Below, one piece after another: positions 7,609-15,509 of a stretch of DNA of 54,443 nucleotides; the first letter of the stretch is position 1, and each line of letters begins with the position of its first letter. This DNA comes from a virus, in IMG/VR virus record IMGVR_UViG_3300032093_000180, positions 1 to 54,443 of that record; one strand, 5' to 3'. The position numbers and the translations under genes are program-made. Below the pieces are notes generated by a model. It had not been told where the DNA came from and searched no databases. It saw only the letters and a program-made list of their open reading frames with translations.

Positions 7609-8291
7609 AAAACCCCCCTGCATGGAGTTACTCCAGCATCACGCTGTTTGAGCAGTGCCCCAAGAAGTACTACCACCTGCGGGTGGCCAAAGACATCAAG
7701 GAGCCTGACAGTGAGGCCATGATGTACGGCAAGGACGTACACACGGCAGCGGAGAAATTCATGCGGGACGGCACCCCATTGCCTGAGAAGTATGCGTTCA
7801 TGCGTCCGATGCTGGAGAAGCTCCAAGCCATACCCGGTGACAAACACTGTGAACTCAAGATGGGCCTCAAGAAGGTGGACGGGCGGCTTATGCCGTGCGG
7901 CTTCTTTGACAAGGAGGTGTGGTTCAGGGGAGTGGCTGACCTGTTGATCATCAACAAGGACAAGGGTGAGGGGCGCGTCATTGACTACAAGACTGGCAAG
8001 AGCGCCAAGTACGCGGATACCAAGCAGCTTGCCCTGATGGCGGCATGTGTGTTTGCGCACTTCCCAGAGGTGAAGGTGGTCAAGTCAGGGCTGCTGTTCG
8101 TGGTGAGCGAAGAGTTTGTAAAGGCGCAGTTCAAGGCTGAGACTGGCTACAGTATCTTTTCAGAACTCGATGACACACTGACCGCCAGAGAGGCCGCGTA
8201 TGAGTCCGAGGTGTTCAACCCCAAGCGTAATTTCAGTTGCAAGGCGTGGTGCCCTGTGCTAATCTGTCCGCATAATGGAAGGAGCGAATGA
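7605..8291 (+). CDS. Cas4/RecB-like PD-(D/E)XK exonuclease
   Basis: 228 residues from GTG 7605. It opens with the RecB-nuclease motif SYSSITLFEQCPKKYY, then GKDVHTAAE (His46), GVADLL (Asp112), VIDYKTGK (Asp127, Lys129) and a Gln141 helix. A single early Cys18 and a C-terminal C-x3-C-x4-C (212, 216, 221) match the split iron-sulfur cluster of Cas4 and AddB nucleases. It probably processes DNA ends during phage replication or recombination. No CRISPR genes are present, so the name implies fold only. Confidence 0.88.
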   Translation: MKNPPAWSYSSITLFEQCPKKYYHLRVAKDIKEPDSEAMMYGKDVHTAAEKFMRDGTPLPEKYAFMRPMLEKLQAIPGDKHCELKMGLKKVDGRLMPCGFFDKEVWFRGVADLLIINKDKGEGRVIDYKTGKSAKYADTKQLALMAACVFAHFPEVKVVKSGLLFVVSEEFVKAQFKAETGYSIFSELDDTLTAREAAYESEVFNPKRNFSCKAWCPVLICPHNGRSE

Positions 8292-8608
8292 TGCCCTACA
8301 AAAACAAAGCTGATCGTGACCCCAAGCACGAATGGCAGCTTGAGAAGAAGCGCGATGGTGCCCATGAGGCACGGATGGAGCGTCAACGCGCCCGTCGAGC
8401 CATCGACAAAAAACACCCCGACCGCAACGGTAACGGCACTGCCGACATCCGTGAGGGCAAAGACGTTGCCCACCGCGTAGCCCTGAGCAAGGGTGGCAGT
8501 AACAAACACGGTGTGCAGATCGAGCCGTCCTCAAAGAACCGTTCATTCAAACGCGCTTCCAACCACAAGGTGGTGTCGGAAGTCAGCACCCGAGAGCGCA
8601 AGAAATAA
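8288..8608 (+). CDS. Basic HNH-like (degenerate) protein
   Basis: 106 residues, highly basic. The N-terminal half is a charged helix (KHEWQLEKKRDGAHEARMERQR), followed by DRNGNGTAD, which looks like a calcium-loop consensus, then KDVAHRVALSKGGSN and SKNRSFKR. The A-H-R-x-A-L-S-K-G-G-S-N block resembles the core of HNH nucleases without a convincing full catalytic set. Such proteins are common in phages. It is the last gene before a structured gap. Confidence 0.6.
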   Translation: MMPYKNKADRDPKHEWQLEKKRDGAHEARMERQRARRAIDKKHPDRNGNGTADIREGKDVAHRVALSKGGSNKHGVQIEPSSKNRSFKRASNHKVVSEVSTRERKK

Positions 8609-8615
8609 AGTTTGG

Positions 8616-8773
8616 GGCGTCACCCAAGTAAGGTGTGGGTGATAAGTGACGCCAGGGTTGCAGAGCCCTCCATAGTGAATAACTACACCAGTCAGCACGG
8701 TTGCTCCCCTTTCTCAGCCGGGAACTGACGGACACTCCGGAAAGACGGAGATTTCCTTCAAACGTCATGTTTG
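8616..8773 (+). ncRNA. Chain of five hairpins upstream of helicase gene
   Basis: This 189-base gap is unusual in an operon of overlapping genes. Perfect inverted repeats follow one another. H1 is GGCGTCAC (8616-8623) with GTGACGCC (8646-8653). H2 is AGGGTT with AGCCCT around a GCAG loop (8654-8669, one G-U pair). H3 is GTCAG (8691-8695) with CTGAC (8725-8729), plus inner CGG/CCG. H4 is CTCCG with CGGAG around GAAAGA (8735-8750). H5 is CAAAC with GTTTG around GTCAT (8759-8773). The helicase ribosome site TTGGAG (8787-8792) follows. It could be a cis-regulatory leader or processed small RNA. It matches no family I recognise. Confidence 0.5.
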
Positions 8774-8797
8774 GAGTGCAACGATATTGGAGCGTAC

Positions 8798-10345
8798 ATG
8801 GAGATCATTGAGAACAAGGCACTGCTGCTGACAGTGCGCAACCCGGATCGGATCACAACCGTGATTCCGAAGAGCAAGGTACTGGAGCATGGTGACGGTA
8901 TCGCCAGAGTGCTGGTCAACTGGGGGCTTGAAGAGTCCATCATCCTCAAGAACTTAAAGATCAACGCACCCTCACCCATCACCGGCCGTTACAAATGGCC
9001 CGGGCTCAACAAACCGTTTGAGCACCAGAAGACCACTGCATCTTTCCTCACCCTCCACCGCAGGGCGTTCTGCTTCAACGAGCAGGGGACGGGTAAGACT
9101 GCCTCCGTCATCTGGGCATCGGACTACCTGATGAACCTTGGCATCGTCAAGCGGGTGCTGGTCATCTGCCCGCTGTCCATTATGGATGCTGCCTGGAGGG
9201 GTGACCTCTTCCGGTTCGCCATGCACCGCAGGGTTGATGTTGCCCACGGCAAGCCCGAGAAGCGCAAAGAGATCGTGCTCGGAGATGCGGAGTTTGTAGT
9301 CATCAACTACGACGGTGTTGAGATCGTCGCTGATGAGATTAAGAAAGGTGGCTTTGACCTTGTGGTCGTGGATGAGGCCAACGCATACAAGAACCCGCAG
9401 ACCAAACGCTGGAAGGTGCTGAACTCTCTGCTCACACCCAACACATGGCTGTGGATGCTCACTGGCACCCCGGCATCTCAATCGCCTGTGGATGCCTATG
9501 GTCTGGCCAAGCTGGTCAGCCCGAACAACGTGCCACGCTTTGGTGGTGCGTTCAAGGACTTGGTGATGAACAAGGTCACGCAGTTCAAGTGGGTGCCCAA
9601 ACCCAACGCGCAGACCACGGTGCATAAGGTCTTGCAGCCTGCCATCCGGTTCACCAAAGAGCAGTGCCTGGACCTGCCTGAAATGTCTTACACGTTCAGG
9701 GATGTACCGCTTACCGCCCAGCAGATCAAGTACTACGAGCTACTGCGCAAACAACTGATCGTACAGGCCGCAGGAGAAGAGATCACCACGGTCAACGCAG
9801 CGGCCAACCTCAACAAGCTGCTGCAACTCTCAGGCGGTGCGGTGTATTCCGACACTGGAGAGATTGTGCAGTTCGACGCCAGCAACCGCTTGGCGGTGTT
9901 GCGTGAAGTCGTTGAGGAGTCAAGCCATAAGGTGTTGGTGTTTGTGCCATACAGACACGCCATCGAGTTGGTGTCCGAAGACCTAAAGAAGCACGGGTAC
10001 AGCACCGCCGTGATTCACGGGGGCATATCCGCAACCAATCGGGCCGACATCTTCCAGCGGTTCCAGACCCAGCCAGACCCACAGGTGCTGGTCATCCAGC
10101 CGCAAGCCGCATCACACGGCGTCACCCTCCATGCCGCAAACACAATCGTGTACTGGAGCCCCGTGATGTCCGTGGAAACGTACCTGCAATGCAACGCACG
10201 TGTGCATCGCGCAGGGCAGAAGAACCCCTCGGTGGTCGTCCACCTGCAAGGCAGTGGGGTGGAGAAGAGGATGTACGCCATGCTCAAAAACAAGATGGAC
10301 ATCCACATCAAGATCGTGGACCTCTACGGGGAACTACTGAGTTGA
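8798..10345 (+). CDS. SNF2-type superfamily 2 helicase/ATPase
   Basis: 515 residues from ATG 8798, 5 bases after TTGGAG (8787-8792). An in-frame TTG at 8771 is less likely. Helicase motifs are in order: FEHQKTT (Q-like), GTGKT (97-101), motif II DEAN (192-195), TGTP (222-225), then the second RecA fold with VLVFVPYRHAIEL and the arginine-finger motif QCNARVHRAGQ (464-474). This is the compact SNF2/Rad54-like phage type, a DNA translocase probably acting in replication or recombination. It follows the structured gap, so its expression may be controlled separately. Confidence 0.92.
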   Translation: MEIIENKALLLTVRNPDRITTVIPKSKVLEHGDGIARVLVNWGLEESIILKNLKINAPSPITGRYKWPGLNKPFEHQKTTASFLTLHRRAFCFNEQGTGKTASVIWASDYLMNLGIVKRVLVICPLSIMDAAWRGDLFRFAMHRRVDVAHGKPEKRKEIVLGDAEFVVINYDGVEIVADEIKKGGFDLVVVDEANAYKNPQTKRWKVLNSLLTPNTWLWMLTGTPASQSPVDAYGLAKLVSPNNVPRFGGAFKDLVMNKVTQFKWVPKPNAQTTVHKVLQPAIRFTKEQCLDLPEMSYTFRDVPLTAQQIKYYELLRKQLIVQAAGEEITTVNAAANLNKLLQLSGGAVYSDTGEIVQFDASNRLAVLREVVEESSHKVLVFVPYRHAIELVSEDLKKHGYSTAVIHGGISATNRADIFQRFQTQPDPQVLVIQPQAASHGVTLHAANTIVYWSPVMSVETYLQCNARVHRAGQKNPSVVVHLQGSGVEKRMYAMLKNKMDIHIKIVDLYGELLS

Positions 10346-10361
10346 GGAGGAGAAAAAAACT

Positions 10362-10390
10362 ATTGACAATGACACTCTGTCAATTATACT
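10362..10390 (+). promoter_or_regulatory. Sigma-70 promoter with embedded operator-like palindrome
   Basis: -35 TTGACA (10363-10368) and -10 TATACT (10385-10390) are separated by 16 bases, close to consensus. The perfect inverted repeat ATTGACA (10362-10368) and TGTCAAT (10378-10384) has a 9-base centre, covers the -35 and spacer, and could bind a dimeric repressor. The expected transcription start, about 10396-10398, falls directly at ATG 10399. Confidence 0.7.
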
Positions 10391-10398
10391 GGGCCCCC

Positions 10399-10791
10399 AT
10401 GAAAACCAGACTACCGCTGCCTCCTGCTGCGCACTTGCATGAGTTGTTTGTCTACAAAGATGGCCTGCTTATATGGCGGGAGAGCAGAAAACACGGCAAG
10501 GTAAAGGCAGGTGCAGTTGCTGGATGGAAGTCCAAAACGGATGGATATGTTCGGATATGTATAGAAGGGATGCAGTACGCCGCGCATCGCTTGGTATGGC
10601 GCATGCACAACCCTCGCGGGGCAATCCCATTCATTCTTGACCACATTGACGGAGACCGTTCAAACAATCGAATCGAAAATTTAAGGAAAGTAACACCCAC
10701 TGAAAACAGACACAACAGAAGACCCCGGAAACAAGGGGTTGTTGGATCAGGTAAGTTGCAGCAGCTTTTACAAGAAAGGAGATCACAATGA
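10399..10791 (+). CDS. HNH homing-type endonuclease
   Basis: 130 residues. A classical phage HNH core: AAHRLVWRMHNPRGAIPF, then LDHIDGDRSNNRIENLR with the His/Asp/Asn residues, and V-T-P-T-E-N-R-H-N. The usual C-terminal AP2-like DNA-binding part is replaced by a short basic tail, so it may be shortened. The start is uncertain. ATG 10399 lies at the predicted transcription start of its own promoter and would be leaderless. In-frame ATG 10369 follows GAGGAGG (10344-10350) and could be used from operon transcripts. It looks like an inserted selfish gene. Confidence 0.85.
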   Translation: MKTRLPLPPAAHLHELFVYKDGLLIWRESRKHGKVKAGAVAGWKSKTDGYVRICIEGMQYAAHRLVWRMHNPRGAIPFILDHIDGDRSNNRIENLRKVTPTENRHNRRPRKQGVVGSGKLQQLLQERRSQ

Positions 10792-11183: not shown

Positions 11184-11384
11184 GTGCAAAACCAAAACAT
11201 GACGGTCAAGGAGGTTGCAGATTTTCTGCGCGTCTCCCGCCAGACCGTGTACACGATGGTCAAAGAGGGAAGGCTTCCGCATTTCCGAATTGGCAACAAG
11301 GTCCGCTTCAAACAGAGCGACATTGAGGCCCTGACCTCGACCGCAAAAACCAACCCCGCAACTACTGGAGTAAATGATGAGTGA
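11184..11384 (+). CDS. Excisionase-family (MerR-like) HTH protein
   Basis: 66 residues from GTG 11184, with AAGGAG 8 bases upstream. The sequence MTVKEVADFLRVSRQTVYTM, then VKEGRLPHFRIGNKVRFKQSDIEAL is the standard helix-turn-helix plus wing of the excisionase/HTH_17 family. No integrase is visible in the window, so it is more probably a transcription or replication regulator than an excisionase. Confidence 0.85.
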   Translation: MQNQNMTVKEVADFLRVSRQTVYTMVKEGRLPHFRIGNKVRFKQSDIEALTSTAKTNPATTGVNDE

Positions 11385-12297
11385 ACTGACCCTGTTTTCC
11401 AAAGGCGGCAACACCCTGCCCGCGCACCTGCGCAACATCGAACTTGATGAGACCACGAAAGCCCTGATGGGCGGCAGTGGCGGTGGCAGCGGCAAACGTA
11501 TTTCTATCCGTGGCGGCGTGTTCCGCATGCTCGTGGATGGCAAGGAAGTTGCCCAGAACGAAGACCGCTCGATGAACATTGTGATCGTGGCTGCAAACGC
11601 CAACGTGTCACGCAGCTTCTACGCTGGAGATTATGAAGAAGGCAAAAACATTTCCCCCGACTGCTGGTCCAATGACGGCATCTCCCCCGATGTCAAGGTC
11701 TCAGAACCGCAGGCATCCAAGTGCGCCTCATGCCCGCAGAATGTCGCAGGCTCTGCGAAACAGGGCGGCGGTCGTGCTTGCCGTTTCAGCCAACGCATGG
11801 CTGTGATGCTGGAGAACGATCTGCAAGGTGACATCTACCAACTGACCCTGCCCGCGCAATCCATCTTTGGAAACGTGGAGAACGGCAAGATGCCCATGCA
11901 GGCATACGCTAAGTTCTTGGGTGGTCATGGCCTCCCGATCACCGCAGTGGTCACCGAGATGCGGTTCGATACCGCCAGTGCCACTCCCAAACTGACCTTC
12001 AAGGCAGTGCGTCCGCTGGAGGCCGATGAGATGGCCAACTGCCAAGAGAAGGGCCGCAGCACTGAGGCCAAGGCAGCAATCAGCCAGACCCCTGCGGCGC
12101 TTGATGGAGCCAAGCCCAAGGCTGTTGCAGCCGCTCCCGCCGTGAGCACCGACGATGGGGATGATGAGGACGAGGCACCCGCACCGGCCAAGGTCAAAGT
12201 CAAGGCCGAAGAAGTGCCTGCTGAGGAGCCGACCAAGCGCCCCAAGAAAGCCGCACCGAAAGATGTGAGCGCCATCTTGGACGACTGGGCTGAGTAA
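11377..12297 (+). CDS. Possible ssDNA-binding protein with acidic tail
   Basis: 306 residues from ATG 11377, 6 bases after GGAG; ATG 11374 is the alternative. A folded part (about 1-215) includes a Gly-rich loop, a Cys-rich segment (SKCASCPQN then GRACRF) and beta-like strands. A long Ala/Pro/acidic linker (about 230-290) follows, and the end DVSAILDDWAE is acidic with a terminal aromatic, as in SSB and T7 gp2.5 tails that bind replication partners. The placement between helicase and primase agrees. The assignment is an inference from architecture, not from a recognised fold. Confidence 0.5.
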   Translation: MSELTLFSKGGNTLPAHLRNIELDETTKALMGGSGGGSGKRISIRGGVFRMLVDGKEVAQNEDRSMNIVIVAANANVSRSFYAGDYEEGKNISPDCWSNDGISPDVKVSEPQASKCASCPQNVAGSAKQGGGRACRFSQRMAVMLENDLQGDIYQLTLPAQSIFGNVENGKMPMQAYAKFLGGHGLPITAVVTEMRFDTASATPKLTFKAVRPLEADEMANCQEKGRSTEAKAAISQTPAALDGAKPKAVAAAPAVSTDDGDDEDEAPAPAKVKVKAEEVPAEEPTKRPKKAAPKDVSAILDDWAE

Positions 12298-12343
12298 GGA
12301 GCCTGGGGGGAAAGCGGATACAGCGAGTACCCCCACCCACACT
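12296..12343 (+). promoter_or_regulatory. Hairpin between Shine-Dalgarno site and start codon
   Basis: The HTH gene at 12344 has no purine-rich site just upstream (only CCCACACT). AAGGAG lies at 12296-12301, 42 bases away. Between them TGGGGG (12304-12309) can pair with CCCCCA (12330-12335). If folded, the effective spacing to ATG becomes about 10 bases, comparable to the folded initiation site known for T4 gene 38. Confidence 0.4.
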
Positions 12344-12583
12344 ATGAACAACAGAGGCTACTCACGCAAATTTGCAGCCGCCAACAAGAAGGCAGACTCA
12401 TCCCATGTGGGTGTGCGGCTTGGGCGTATCTGCATAGCCGAGGACATCCCGGTTCCTGATGTGGCTGAGTACCTTGGTGTGTCCCGTCAGGCCGTGTACC
12501 TGTGGTTCTTAGGCAAGTCCACCCCGCATCCCAAGATGCGCGAGACGCTGAACGAACTGATCACAAGGTTCAAGGCTAAATAA
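12344..12583 (+). CDS. Small helix-turn-helix DNA-binding protein
   Basis: 79 residues with a basic N-terminus (residues 1-18). IAEDIPVPDVAEYLGVSRQAVYLW forms an XRE/Cro-like helix-turn-helix with the recognition helix at about residues 47-55, followed by PHPKMRETLNELITRF. A possible regulator of the replication region. Its initiation site may be formed by an RNA hairpin. Confidence 0.75.
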   Translation: MNNRGYSRKFAAANKKADSSHVGVRLGRICIAEDIPVPDVAEYLGVSRQAVYLWFLGKSTPHPKMRETLNELITRFKAK

Positions 12584-12635
12584 CCCAACAATTTCGCCCA
12601 CTGCCGCCAGTAGTGGGTTGCTGAGAGAGCGAACG

Positions 12636-15509
12636 ATGACCTCACGGATTCCCTTTCTCTCTTCTGTTTTGGCAGAAGAGGGACTGTACTGTGTGGTTGG
12701 GTTGAAGAAAGGTGCTCCGAGACAGACGTTTGTAGAGTCAATTGAAGAGATCGACGGTGTAGTGGATGGCTTGATCGCGCAAGGGTATGACGCATATTTT
12801 GGATGTGCCAAGTACTTGAACGCGGCAGAAGGACGCACAGCGCAGAACGCCAAATGGTTCAAAGCCTTTTGGATTGATCTGGACTGCGGCGAGGAAAAGC
12901 CATACGAAACACAGGCCGATGCGCTTGAGGCTCTCAAAGGTTTTGTCAAGGTCACTGGACTACCAAGGCCAACCATAATCAACTCAGGCAGAGGTGTTCA
13001 CGCATACTGGACACTGACAGCGCCGATCTTCTACAACGACTGGAAGCCCACAGCCGAAGCCTTCAAGAAGTTCTGCGCGGTATACAACCTCAAGGCCGAC
13101 CCTGCGGTGACTGCTGATGCAGCCCGCATCCTGCGCGTCCCAGAGACGCTGAACTACAAAGACAGCCCACCAAAGCCGGTTGATGTCATGCTGGTGTCCC
13201 CAGCGATCACACTGAGCCGGTTCCAAGAGATCGTTGGGATCGGAGCAGAAGAGGGTGAGCCTGATCTGCCGTTTGCCAAGAACGTGCCCCGCAAGGTACT
13301 GGATGCCACGACCCGCGCATTGATGGGTAACAGCGTCTCAAAGTTTGGCACCATCATGCGCAAGAGCGCCCACGGCAAAGGCTGTGCCCAGCTTGTCCAC
13401 ATCTACCGCAACCAAGAAGAAACAGAAGAACCACTGTGGAGGGCGGGGCTGTCAATCGCGGTCAACTGCGAAGATGGTGAACTGGCAATCCACAAGATAT
13501 CCCACGGTCATCCAGAGTACGACCCGACGGAGACGCAGACCAAAGCCGATACGCTGATTGGCAAGCCATACAAGTGCGCCACCTTCCAGGGGCTGAACCC
13601 GGGCGGGTGCGATGAGTGCCCCAATCGCGGCAAGATCACTTCCCCCATCCAGATTGGCGCATCCATTGCAGAGGCCAAGGCCGAGGACAACATTGTTGTC
13701 ATGCGCAACGCGGTGCTGGAGGAGGAAGTCACTGTTGAGATTCCCGAGTACCCGTTTCCATATTTCCGTGGCAAGAACGGTGGTGTGTATCGGCGGGAGT
13801 TGCCCGGTGAGCGAAAGCGCAAGAAGGACGACGATGACGATGATGAGCCACAAGACAAGCTCGTCTATGAGTACGACCTGTATGTGGTCAAGAGGCTGGA
13901 CGACCCAGATGTTGGGGAGTCGCTGTGGATGCGGCTGCACATGCCCAAGGACGGCATCAAAGAGTTTTCGTGCCCACTCTCAAGCGTCATGTCACGCGAC
14001 AAGCTCAGAGATGTGCTGTCGTTTCAGGGTGTGGCGGCATACAACGCAAAACTGGATGGAATCATGGCTTACGTAACAAGATGGGTCAATGAACTGCAAC
14101 AGCTTACTGAGGCTGAGAAGGCCCGCCAGCAGTTTGGCTGGCATGAGAACGACACCAAGTTCGTGGTTGGCAACCGGGAGATATCGGCGTCCGGGGTTGT
14201 GTACAGCCCCTCATCAAACGCCACCGCAGAAGTCGCCGCTGCCTACGGCAAGAAAGGCACCGTGGCCGAGTGGGCGCGTGTTGCCAACATCTATGCTGCA
14301 CCGGGCAATGAGGTGCGGGCGTTCACCCTGTTTTCTGGGTTCGGCTCAACGCTCTTCAAGTTCACCAAGCTCAGTGGTGCCATCATTCACCTGACCAACA
14401 ACGGCTCTGGTGTTGGTAAGACCACCATACAACATATGGTCAACAGCATCTGGGGACGGCCAGTGGAAACACTGCTGAACCAAGAGGACAAGTACCTTGC
14501 CCGTATGCACAGGATTGCAGTGCTGGGCAGCATCCCCGCTACGATTGATGAGTTGACCAATATGCTGGATGAAGAAGTCAGCAACATGGCGTACAGCATC
14601 ACGCACGGGCGGGGGCGTAACCGGATGCAATCCCAGACCAACGCGGAGCGGAGCAACTCTTTGCGCTGGGCACTGATCGCCATCACCTCGGGTAACAAGA
14701 GCCTGTACGACCAGTTGTACAACCTCAAGGATTTCCCAGAGGGCGAACTGATGCGGATACTGGAGTTCTCAGTGTCCAAGAACGACCGGATGAGCAAGGC
14801 CGAGTCCGATGAGGCGTTCAACCCCATGCACGAGAACTACGGCGTGGCCGGTGAAGTGTTCATGCGGTATGTGATTGCCAACCTGCCAGAGGTCAAGAAG
14901 CTGCTCCTCAAGGTGCAGCGCAAGCTGGACAAGGCCGCAGGGTTTACGCAGCGGGAGCGGTTCTGGTCTGCCACCGCAGCATGCGCCATCACCTCGGGCA
15001 TCATCACCAAGAAGCTGGGCCTGCACAACATTGATGTGGCTGCGGTCTACACATGGGCGGTGCAGGAGCTAGGCAGGATGCGGGTTGAGGTGCGCCCTGG
15101 AGTCGTTGGGCCTCTCGCCCATCTGGGTCTGTTCCTCAACGCCCATAACAACAATATGCTCATCGTCAACAGCACTGTGGATAAGCGTTCGGGGTTGAAT
15201 GCGGTACCAGTACGCGAACCAAGGGGTGAGTTGATCACACGCTATGAGCCGGACACCAAGCTCCTGTTCATAACCACCAAAGTTCTTCGTGAGTGGTGCA
15301 GTGAAAACCAAGTGTCCTACAAAGCTCTTGTGGATGACCTGCACCGGCTTGGCGCATGCCAAGGGTCCATCAAGAAGGCGATGTCCCGAGGCTCTGACAT
15401 GTCCACCCCTCCTGTGAACGCGCTGGTGGTCGATTGCAACAAGGCTACGGCGCTGGACCCGGAGGACAAGACCCCGTTGCCCTCTCCAGCAGATGACGAT
15501 AACGAATAG
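12636..15509 (+). CDS. Primase-helicase (AEP-like primase, DUF927-like ATPase)
   Basis: 957 residues from ATG 12636. The N-terminus looks like an archaeo-eukaryotic-type primase: D81-L-D83 metal site, SGRGVHAYW (117-125) and an ILRVP-x-TLNYK block (165-175). Four Cys (C250, C314, C325, C328) may hold zinc or an iron-sulfur cluster, and an Asp-rich linker lies near 398-404. The C-terminal ATPase has Walker A GSGVGKTT (590-597) and Walker B IDEL (637-640), as in DUF927-type helicases. It probably primes and unwinds at the phage fork with the family A polymerase. A hairpin (12597-12617) precedes the gene. Confidence 0.85.
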   Translation: MTSRIPFLSSVLAEEGLYCVVGLKKGAPRQTFVESIEEIDGVVDGLIAQGYDAYFGCAKYLNAAEGRTAQNAKWFKAFWIDLDCGEEKPYETQADALEALKGFVKVTGLPRPTIINSGRGVHAYWTLTAPIFYNDWKPTAEAFKKFCAVYNLKADPAVTADAARILRVPETLNYKDSPPKPVDVMLVSPAITLSRFQEIVGIGAEEGEPDLPFAKNVPRKVLDATTRALMGNSVSKFGTIMRKSAHGKGCAQLVHIYRNQEETEEPLWRAGLSIAVNCEDGELAIHKISHGHPEYDPTETQTKADTLIGKPYKCATFQGLNPGGCDECPNRGKITSPIQIGASIAEAKAEDNIVVMRNAVLEEEVTVEIPEYPFPYFRGKNGGVYRRELPGERKRKKDDDDDDEPQDKLVYEYDLYVVKRLDDPDVGESLWMRLHMPKDGIKEFSCPLSSVMSRDKLRDVLSFQGVAAYNAKLDGIMAYVTRWVNELQQLTEAEKARQQFGWHENDTKFVVGNREISASGVVYSPSSNATAEVAAAYGKKGTVAEWARVANIYAAPGNEVRAFTLFSGFGSTLFKFTKLSGAIIHLTNNGSGVGKTTIQHMVNSIWGRPVETLLNQEDKYLARMHRIAVLGSIPATIDELTNMLDEEVSNMAYSITHGRGRNRMQSQTNAERSNSLRWALIAITSGNKSLYDQLYNLKDFPEGELMRILEFSVSKNDRMSKAESDEAFNPMHENYGVAGEVFMRYVIANLPEVKKLLLKVQRKLDKAAGFTQRERFWSATAACAITSGIITKKLGLHNIDVAAVYTWAVQELGRMRVEVRPGVVGPLAHLGLFLNAHNNNMLIVNSTVDKRSGLNAVPVREPRGELITRYEPDTKLLFITTKVLREWCSENQVSYKALVDDLHRLGACQGSIKKAMSRGSDMSTPPVNALVVDCNKATALDPEDKTPLPSPADDDNE

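Follow-up and report, generated by a model that had tools for sequence, protein, structure and literature searches.

The gap in front of the helicase gene

The window, i.e., the whole stretch of DNA analyzed in this study, comprises 54,443 nt and corresponds to positions 1 to 54,443 of the IMG/VR virus record IMGVR_UViG_3300032093_000180. Within it, an intergenic gap of 189 nt (8609-8797) separates the stop codon TAA (8606-8608) of a small upstream gene from the ATG (8798) of a gene encoding a SNF2-type helicase. A sequence-only reading of this region had reported five consecutive hairpins in front of the helicase gene, and all five stems could be located (P1 to P5, spanning 8616-8776). The fifth, described as 5 bp long, really comprises 8 bp including one G-U pair. 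The description as one series of hairpins holds as far as the five stems are concerned, but it overlooked a pseudoknot and included P5, which is a separate leader element. The features of the region are as follows.

8288-8608, plus strand: gene for a small basic HNH-like protein of 106 aa, PHROG 4590 (HNH resemblance by eye; no Pfam match)
8616-8623 (GGCGUCAC) with 8646-8653 (GUGACGCC), plus strand: P1 hairpin, 8 bp (covariation, unaided RNAalifold)
8628-8641, plus strand: conserved P1 loop, GUAAGGUGUGGGUG, enclosed by the P1 stem
8632-8637, plus strand: 5′ strand of the pseudoknot, GGUGUG, within the P1 loop (covariation)
8654-8659 with 8664-8669, plus strand: P2 hairpin AGGGUU/AGCCCU, 6 bp including one G-U pair (sequence, fold)
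8684-8689, plus strand: 3′ strand of the pseudoknot, UACACC, in the conserved AACY-RYRYC-AG (alignment, covariation)
8691-8695 with 8725-8729, plus strand: P3 outer helix GUCAG/CUGAC, 5 bp (covariation)
8698-8703 with 8715-8720, plus strand: P3 inner helix CGGUUG/CAGCCG (P3 hairpin, 8691-8729)
8704-8714, plus strand: P3 apical loop CUCCCCUUUCU with an anti-Shine-Dalgarno-like pyrimidine motif (motif enrichment, unpairedness)
8735-8739 with 8746-8750, plus strand: P4 hairpin CUCCG-GAAAGA-CGGAG, 5 bp (loop-located pairing test)
8756-8763 with 8769-8776, plus strand: P5 leader hairpin CUUCAAAC/GUUUGGAG, 8 bp including one G-U pair, just 5′ of the helicase ribosome site
8787-8792, plus strand: Shine-Dalgarno (SD) region of the helicase gene, UUGGAG (sequence)
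8798-10345, plus strand: gene for the SNF2-type helicase (Pfam SNF2-rel_dom and Helicase_C; PHROG 62)

Taken alone, the hairpins of the window sequence are not beyond chance. The minimum free energy of the gap was -60 kcal/mol compared to a mean of -56.4 for shuffled sequences (z = -0.84), with 46 of 200 shuffles being equally stable. Similarly, four non-overlapping Watson-Crick hairpins with 5 bp or more were counted in the gap (shuffled mean, 2.57), a number reached by 87 of 500 shuffles, and five or more such hairpins were found in nine of 288 tiles taken from the window. The structure is deemed certain because of the comparative evidence described below and not because of single-sequence folding, and the ordinary-looking folding energy of one sequence is compatible with a structured RNA proven by comparison.

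Searches with the Rfam 15 covariance models yielded no match in the whole window at the gathering threshold and none in 8500-8900 at E ≤ 5. The same applies to the homologous loci at relaxed thresholds, where the RNA described here remained unmatched; a sucC match in one of them (L064, 2935-3001) was sub-threshold (29 bits, cut-off 50) and begins after the model match of this locus (2843-2909). No tRNA or tmRNA was detected by ARAGORN.

Two further observations concern the window itself. In the P1 loop of the window phage and of one relative (L002), GGGUG replaces GAGUG, which in the window creates an alternative stem of 7 bp (GUCACCC/GGGUGAU, 8620-8626 with 8636-8642) competing with P1. In addition, a frame for an HNH_3 endonuclease (10189-10791) overlaps the 3′ end of the helicase gene and is possibly a mobile gene, since it is present in only some of the relatives.

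Covariation of a pseudoknotted RNA

A search with the helicase protein yielded 80 environmental loci, many of which have clearly homologous sequence upstream of the helicase gene. From these relatives a search motif was built (TWAGRTRYGAGTG, a spacer of 25 to 55 nt, AACCRYRYCAG), and an alignment of 37 diverse members was tested against a named structure. The conserved RNA is about 135 nt long, lies within the gap and has the order P1, P2, pseudoknot, P3, P4. Its P1 loop of 14 nt is of the type GUNAG-GRURYG-AGUG, and the GRURYG of this loop forms a pseudoknot of 6 bp with the YRYRYC strand in front of P3 (AACC-RYRYC-AG), thereby enclosing P2. P2 itself is of the type GGGUU...CCC and variable among the phages, although present in most relatives.

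Across the 37 sequences, 82.7% of the cells assigned to the structure were paired compared to 31-40% with the partners slid, and 221 cells were doubly changed compared to 88 in shuffles. The covariation score of 0.586 (shuffles, 0.236) was not reached by any of 500 shuffles. Changes on both sides with pairing kept were found at 17 of the 18 positions of P1 (12 pairs) and P3 (6 pairs) together, namely at all 12 aligned positions of P1 and in five of the six outer pairs of P3, in which 95.5% of the cells were paired. RNAalifold also predicted P1 and P3 when no structure was supplied, with two-sided changes in 13 of 14 pairs. For P4, the hairpin was located by its loop alone and the stem pairing was then counted: stem pairs 1-4 were formed in 100% of the copies with either loop type (CGUAA or GAAAGA) and showed compensatory changes, and pair 5 was formed in 33 of 33 cases for one loop type and 23 of 27 for the other. 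Cells of the pseudoknot were paired to 99.1%, and its column pair 21-84 was G-C in 30 of the 37 sequences, A-U in the other seven and never mismatched. Since the P1 loop and the AACC...CAG strand were in part prescribed by the search pattern, their invariance is partly by construction; A-C mismatches in the pseudoknot were allowed by this pattern, yet hardly seen, and P1, P3 and P4 were absent from it.

Compensatory stem changes in related phages, the lack of which had been named as grounds for giving up the structure, are therefore present across these 37 sequences. The other such ground, a degraded coding gene in the gap, is refuted, as the region aligns as a covarying RNA and indels among the relatives are of all lengths and not multiples of three. 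Chance hairpins or a decayed gene would agree with the unexceptional folding of the single sequence, but are extremely improbable given that P1, the pseudoknot, P3 and P4 all covary among divergent phages and bacteria. It is practically certain that the RNA family exists; it is absent from Rfam 15 and was previously uncatalogued. In the openly accessible literature, to which the search was confined, no description of this RNA was found.

Occurrence in phages and bacteria

A scan of IMG/VR with the search motif yielded at least 120 stretches plus 74 further ones, and altogether at least about 190 contigs of IMG/VR carried the RNA pattern. The HNH-like gene ends at most 130 nt 5′ of the RNA in 146 of 158 classified phage loci, and in 126 of the 158 the helicase gene follows within 230 nt. 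Another gene or insert separates the RNA from the helicase gene in 23 loci, with the HNH-like gene still adjoining. In three loci (L164, L186, and L236), the RNA is relocated to a position between the homolog of window gene 11374-12297 and the primase gene, ends in the P3 stem and is followed by a U-run. A terminator U-run after P4 is absent from most phage copies, with one weak candidate. For a group of abundant, uncultured freshwater-type phages, these results add a strongly supported RNA family that is absent from Rfam 15. The relatives of the helicase in cultured phages share at most approximately 41% identity with it, and none of the four cultured phages with such relatives that were fetched carries a copy of the RNA. 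With the gap region and the bacterial copies as queries, BLAST searches of cultured phages and plasmids yielded nothing useful.

P5 is also found in phages lacking the RNA, 5′ of the helicase gene or of an intervening small ORF, and is a leader element separate from the P1-P4 RNA. In the P5 region (window 8756-8797; loci L001-L080) the sequence varies with the pairing retained by eye, and P5 resembles a separate translation or processing element. Structured-looking gaps 5′ of the helicase gene in six loci (L059, L060, L065, L074, L076, and L077) contain CCTGAT...ATCAGG followed by ...GCCCT/AGGGC and may represent a derived form of the RNA in which a plain hairpin replaces the pseudoknot. Additionally, matches to the int-alpA RNA (RF02996) were observed in L031 (6137-6204), L024 (6116-6187) and L040 (6140-6214), only the first of them above the curated cut-off; they occupy the slot flanked by the 307-aa gene and the primase gene, as the new RNA does in its three relocated loci, and the window region 12100-12800 yielded no int-alpA match.

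In GTDB genomes, the TAAG form of the motif was found in only four stretches. Two of them, one from Polynucleobacter (L273) and one from a betaproteobacterial MAG (L276), are real according to a covariance model. With a model trained on phage copies alone, without bacterial sequences, strong matches (36-60 bits) were obtained in 13 of 151 genomes of the Polynucleobacter group. Wider scans yielded matches in 2 of 299 genomes for the family, 3 of 399 for the order and 2 of 398 for the phylum, mostly in the same genomes as in the genus sample, and the order- and phylum-wide scans gave almost no matches beyond the Polynucleobacter group. Bacterial matches below approximately 26 bits were discarded, as they resemble coding sequence. 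Because a bacterial genus available in culture carries the RNA, e.g., in Polynucleobacter 73C-SIWE, its role is testable in the laboratory.

The bacterial copies lie behind unrelated operons, directly following either a two-gene cassette or a pair encoding a MerR regulator and a VIT/VWA protein. The next gene is convergent in most bacterial loci examined. P4 of most bacterial copies is a GC-rich intrinsic terminator of the form ACAGCCGGGAAAGACCGGCUGUUUU, usually followed by U. The contig of the betaproteobacterial MAG also contains a match to a group I intron (RF00028; L276, 41-262), approximately 3.6 kb from the RNA.

The P3 loop and possible functions

The consensus of the P3 loop is near CUCCUUUC, a mostly unpaired pyrimidine motif (unpaired to 80%, compared to 42% for the remaining loop). 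CCUUUC was found in 55 of 141 distinct P3 loops compared to 2.9 expected from shuffles, and CUCCUU in 36 of them compared to 2.1. A 5-mer in common with the 16S rRNA tail was present in 39 of 42 diverse loops (11.1 expected) and a 6-mer in 33 (2.8 expected); all these counts refer to related and hence not independent sequences. Three bacterial carriers have a 16S rRNA terminating in ...GGAUCACCUCCUUUCUAGA, and CUCCUUUC, found in most bacterial copies, is identical to this tail. By its sequence, CUCCUUUC is therefore read as a copy of the ribosomal anti-Shine-Dalgarno. Like the loops of anti-SD sRNAs, the P3 loop is mostly unpaired, rich in C and U and complementary to SD sequences. In some copies, part of the C-rich tract is paired, and the pyrimidine motif is missing from a few (e.g., L241).

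A specific pairing between the P3 loop and the SD of the helicase gene was rejected, since pairs of a loop with its own helicase start were no better than swapped pairs and in fact slightly worse (-11.9 compared to -12.8 kcal/mol, P = 0.004). The predicted complementarity between loop and SD is thus generic, with the helicase message not being a specially matched target. This is in line with an action in trans on many messages, though not a proof of it. A kissing interaction of the P3 and P4 loops (CUUUC with GAAAG), noticed by eye, was dropped, as copies with P4 loops of the CGUAA type retain CCUUUC.

Four explanations had been offered for the gap on the basis of its sequence: a leader sensing a ligand or protein, an RNase processing site, a separately acting small RNA and an anti-host-defense decoy. 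Since the gene context varies, with 23 separated loci, three relocated ones and a position at operon ends in bacteria, the RNA is quite probably portable and not a leader of the helicase gene, and the constant position within a 5′ UTR seen for riboswitches and other leaders is lacking. The small RNA fits best of the four, with terminator-bearing copies behind unrelated bacterial operons and a movement independent of the helicase gene in the phages. The reading preferred here, to which a probability of roughly 45% is assigned, is an sRNA that would mask SD sequences in trans. In the phages, it may be released from the transcript of the replication operon, and since most phage copies lack a terminator after P4, this release would need processing; in bacteria, it might alternatively be made from a promoter of its own. 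The pseudoknot would protect the RNA or bind a protein, and the CUCCUUUC loop would pair with SD regions of target mRNAs, either host or phage messages, and block initiation, in the manner of known sRNAs with C-rich loops. Should the loop act in the way its sequence implies, an RNA copying the mRNA-selecting tail of the ribosome would be common to phages and bacteria. A more far-reaching version appears quite improbable: a phage-borne, pseudoknot-protected mimic of the anti-SD tail, exchanged with Burkholderiales hosts, that would compete generally with the 30S subunit for SDs and thereby reprogram translation during infection or, when encoded on the chromosome, defend the host.

Riboswitches typically have a compact core with a pseudoknot. 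The core of the new RNA is of this kind, the helicase gene is close by in the majority of phage loci, and CUCC in P3 would in principle be able to pair with an SD, all of which would suit a cis-regulatory, riboswitch-like or protein-binding leader whose pseudoknot senses a signal and alters access to the ribosome site of the helicase gene or the next gene. Such a leader is nevertheless rather unlikely and sensing of a ligand disfavored, since a gene often intervenes before the helicase gene, the RNA has moved away from it in the relocated loci, and most of the bacterial copies end in a terminator, in many cases with no co-directional gene behind it; moreover, the SD lies outside P1-P4, and the swapped pairs argue in the same direction. 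A comparably low probability is given to a 3′-end module of the upstream transcript, i.e., a roadblock, terminator or processing signal shielding the preceding mRNA from exonucleases. It would explain why a coding gene is nearly always close on the 5′ side (the HNH-like gene in phages, operon ends in bacteria) and why most bacterial copies contain an intrinsic terminator, but a terminator requires no pseudoknot, invariant loop letters or conserved CUCCUUUC loop, and the upstream genes are mutually unrelated. As a further alternative, the invariant pseudoknot core might serve as a decoy or scaffold binding protein or RNA, for instance against a host defense or by sequestering a ribosome-associated factor. 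The unpaired core letters GUNAG, AGUG, AAC and CAG are indeed the most conserved ones (partly fixed by the search pattern), and the RNA occurs sporadically in bacteria, in variable regions; still, neither a partner nor a connection to defense was found, and this possibility is judged unlikely.

By behavior, the nearest known kind to the proposed SD-masking sRNA is represented by sX13 of Xanthomonas, a bacterial gene product with three simple stem-loops that acts without Hfq, and by sRNAs of Staphylococcus and Helicobacter, whose apical C-rich loops, like those of sX13, target G-rich motifs near translation starts (PMC3771888). The new RNA is likewise small and highly structured with an apical C-rich loop, but it differs from sX13 in its covarying pseudoknot, in having a single main pyrimidine loop and in being carried mainly by phages, and a sequence relation between the two is not claimed. 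The Polynucleobacter-1 RNA (RF01718; Weinberg, 2010), listed as probably cis-regulatory (PMC2864571), is likewise structured and occurs in Burkholderiales and in fresh water. It gave no match in the scanned carrier loci (cmscan) and none in four carrier genomes, where the control was silent everywhere as well, so that absence from these genomes is not proven; as far as the scans show, the new RNA is distinct from it. The manA and wcaG motifs of cyanophages and the glnA-type riboswitches of phages are similarly phage-borne, conserved, structured and compact, but precede metabolic genes or tmRNA (PMC2864571, PMC9004378), whereas the new RNA lacks a fixed downstream gene and is unmatched by any Rfam model. 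AsxR and c4, phage-derived small RNAs (reviewed in PMC12197685), may be comparable as RNAs made by a phage and able to act on other RNAs; they differ in architecture and likely targets, and neither was found here by Rfam.

Next to this RNA, a second, unrelated conserved RNA was observed (A-N-ACGCAUGGGGAYUG-N-CAGUCYCCAGCCGUGUUGGUG-N-CACCAACAACC), located at approximately 2810-2975 in L009, 5′ of the helicase gene in L028, L040 and L053, and in L315-L433. It yielded no Rfam match in the scanned loci, and an HDV-like theta ribozyme was considered as its identity. Among the matches listed, 117 of 121 loci have no helicase of this type nearby. The second RNA is present in at least 120 IMG/VR stretches, sometimes in tandem and sometimes beside tRNA genes.
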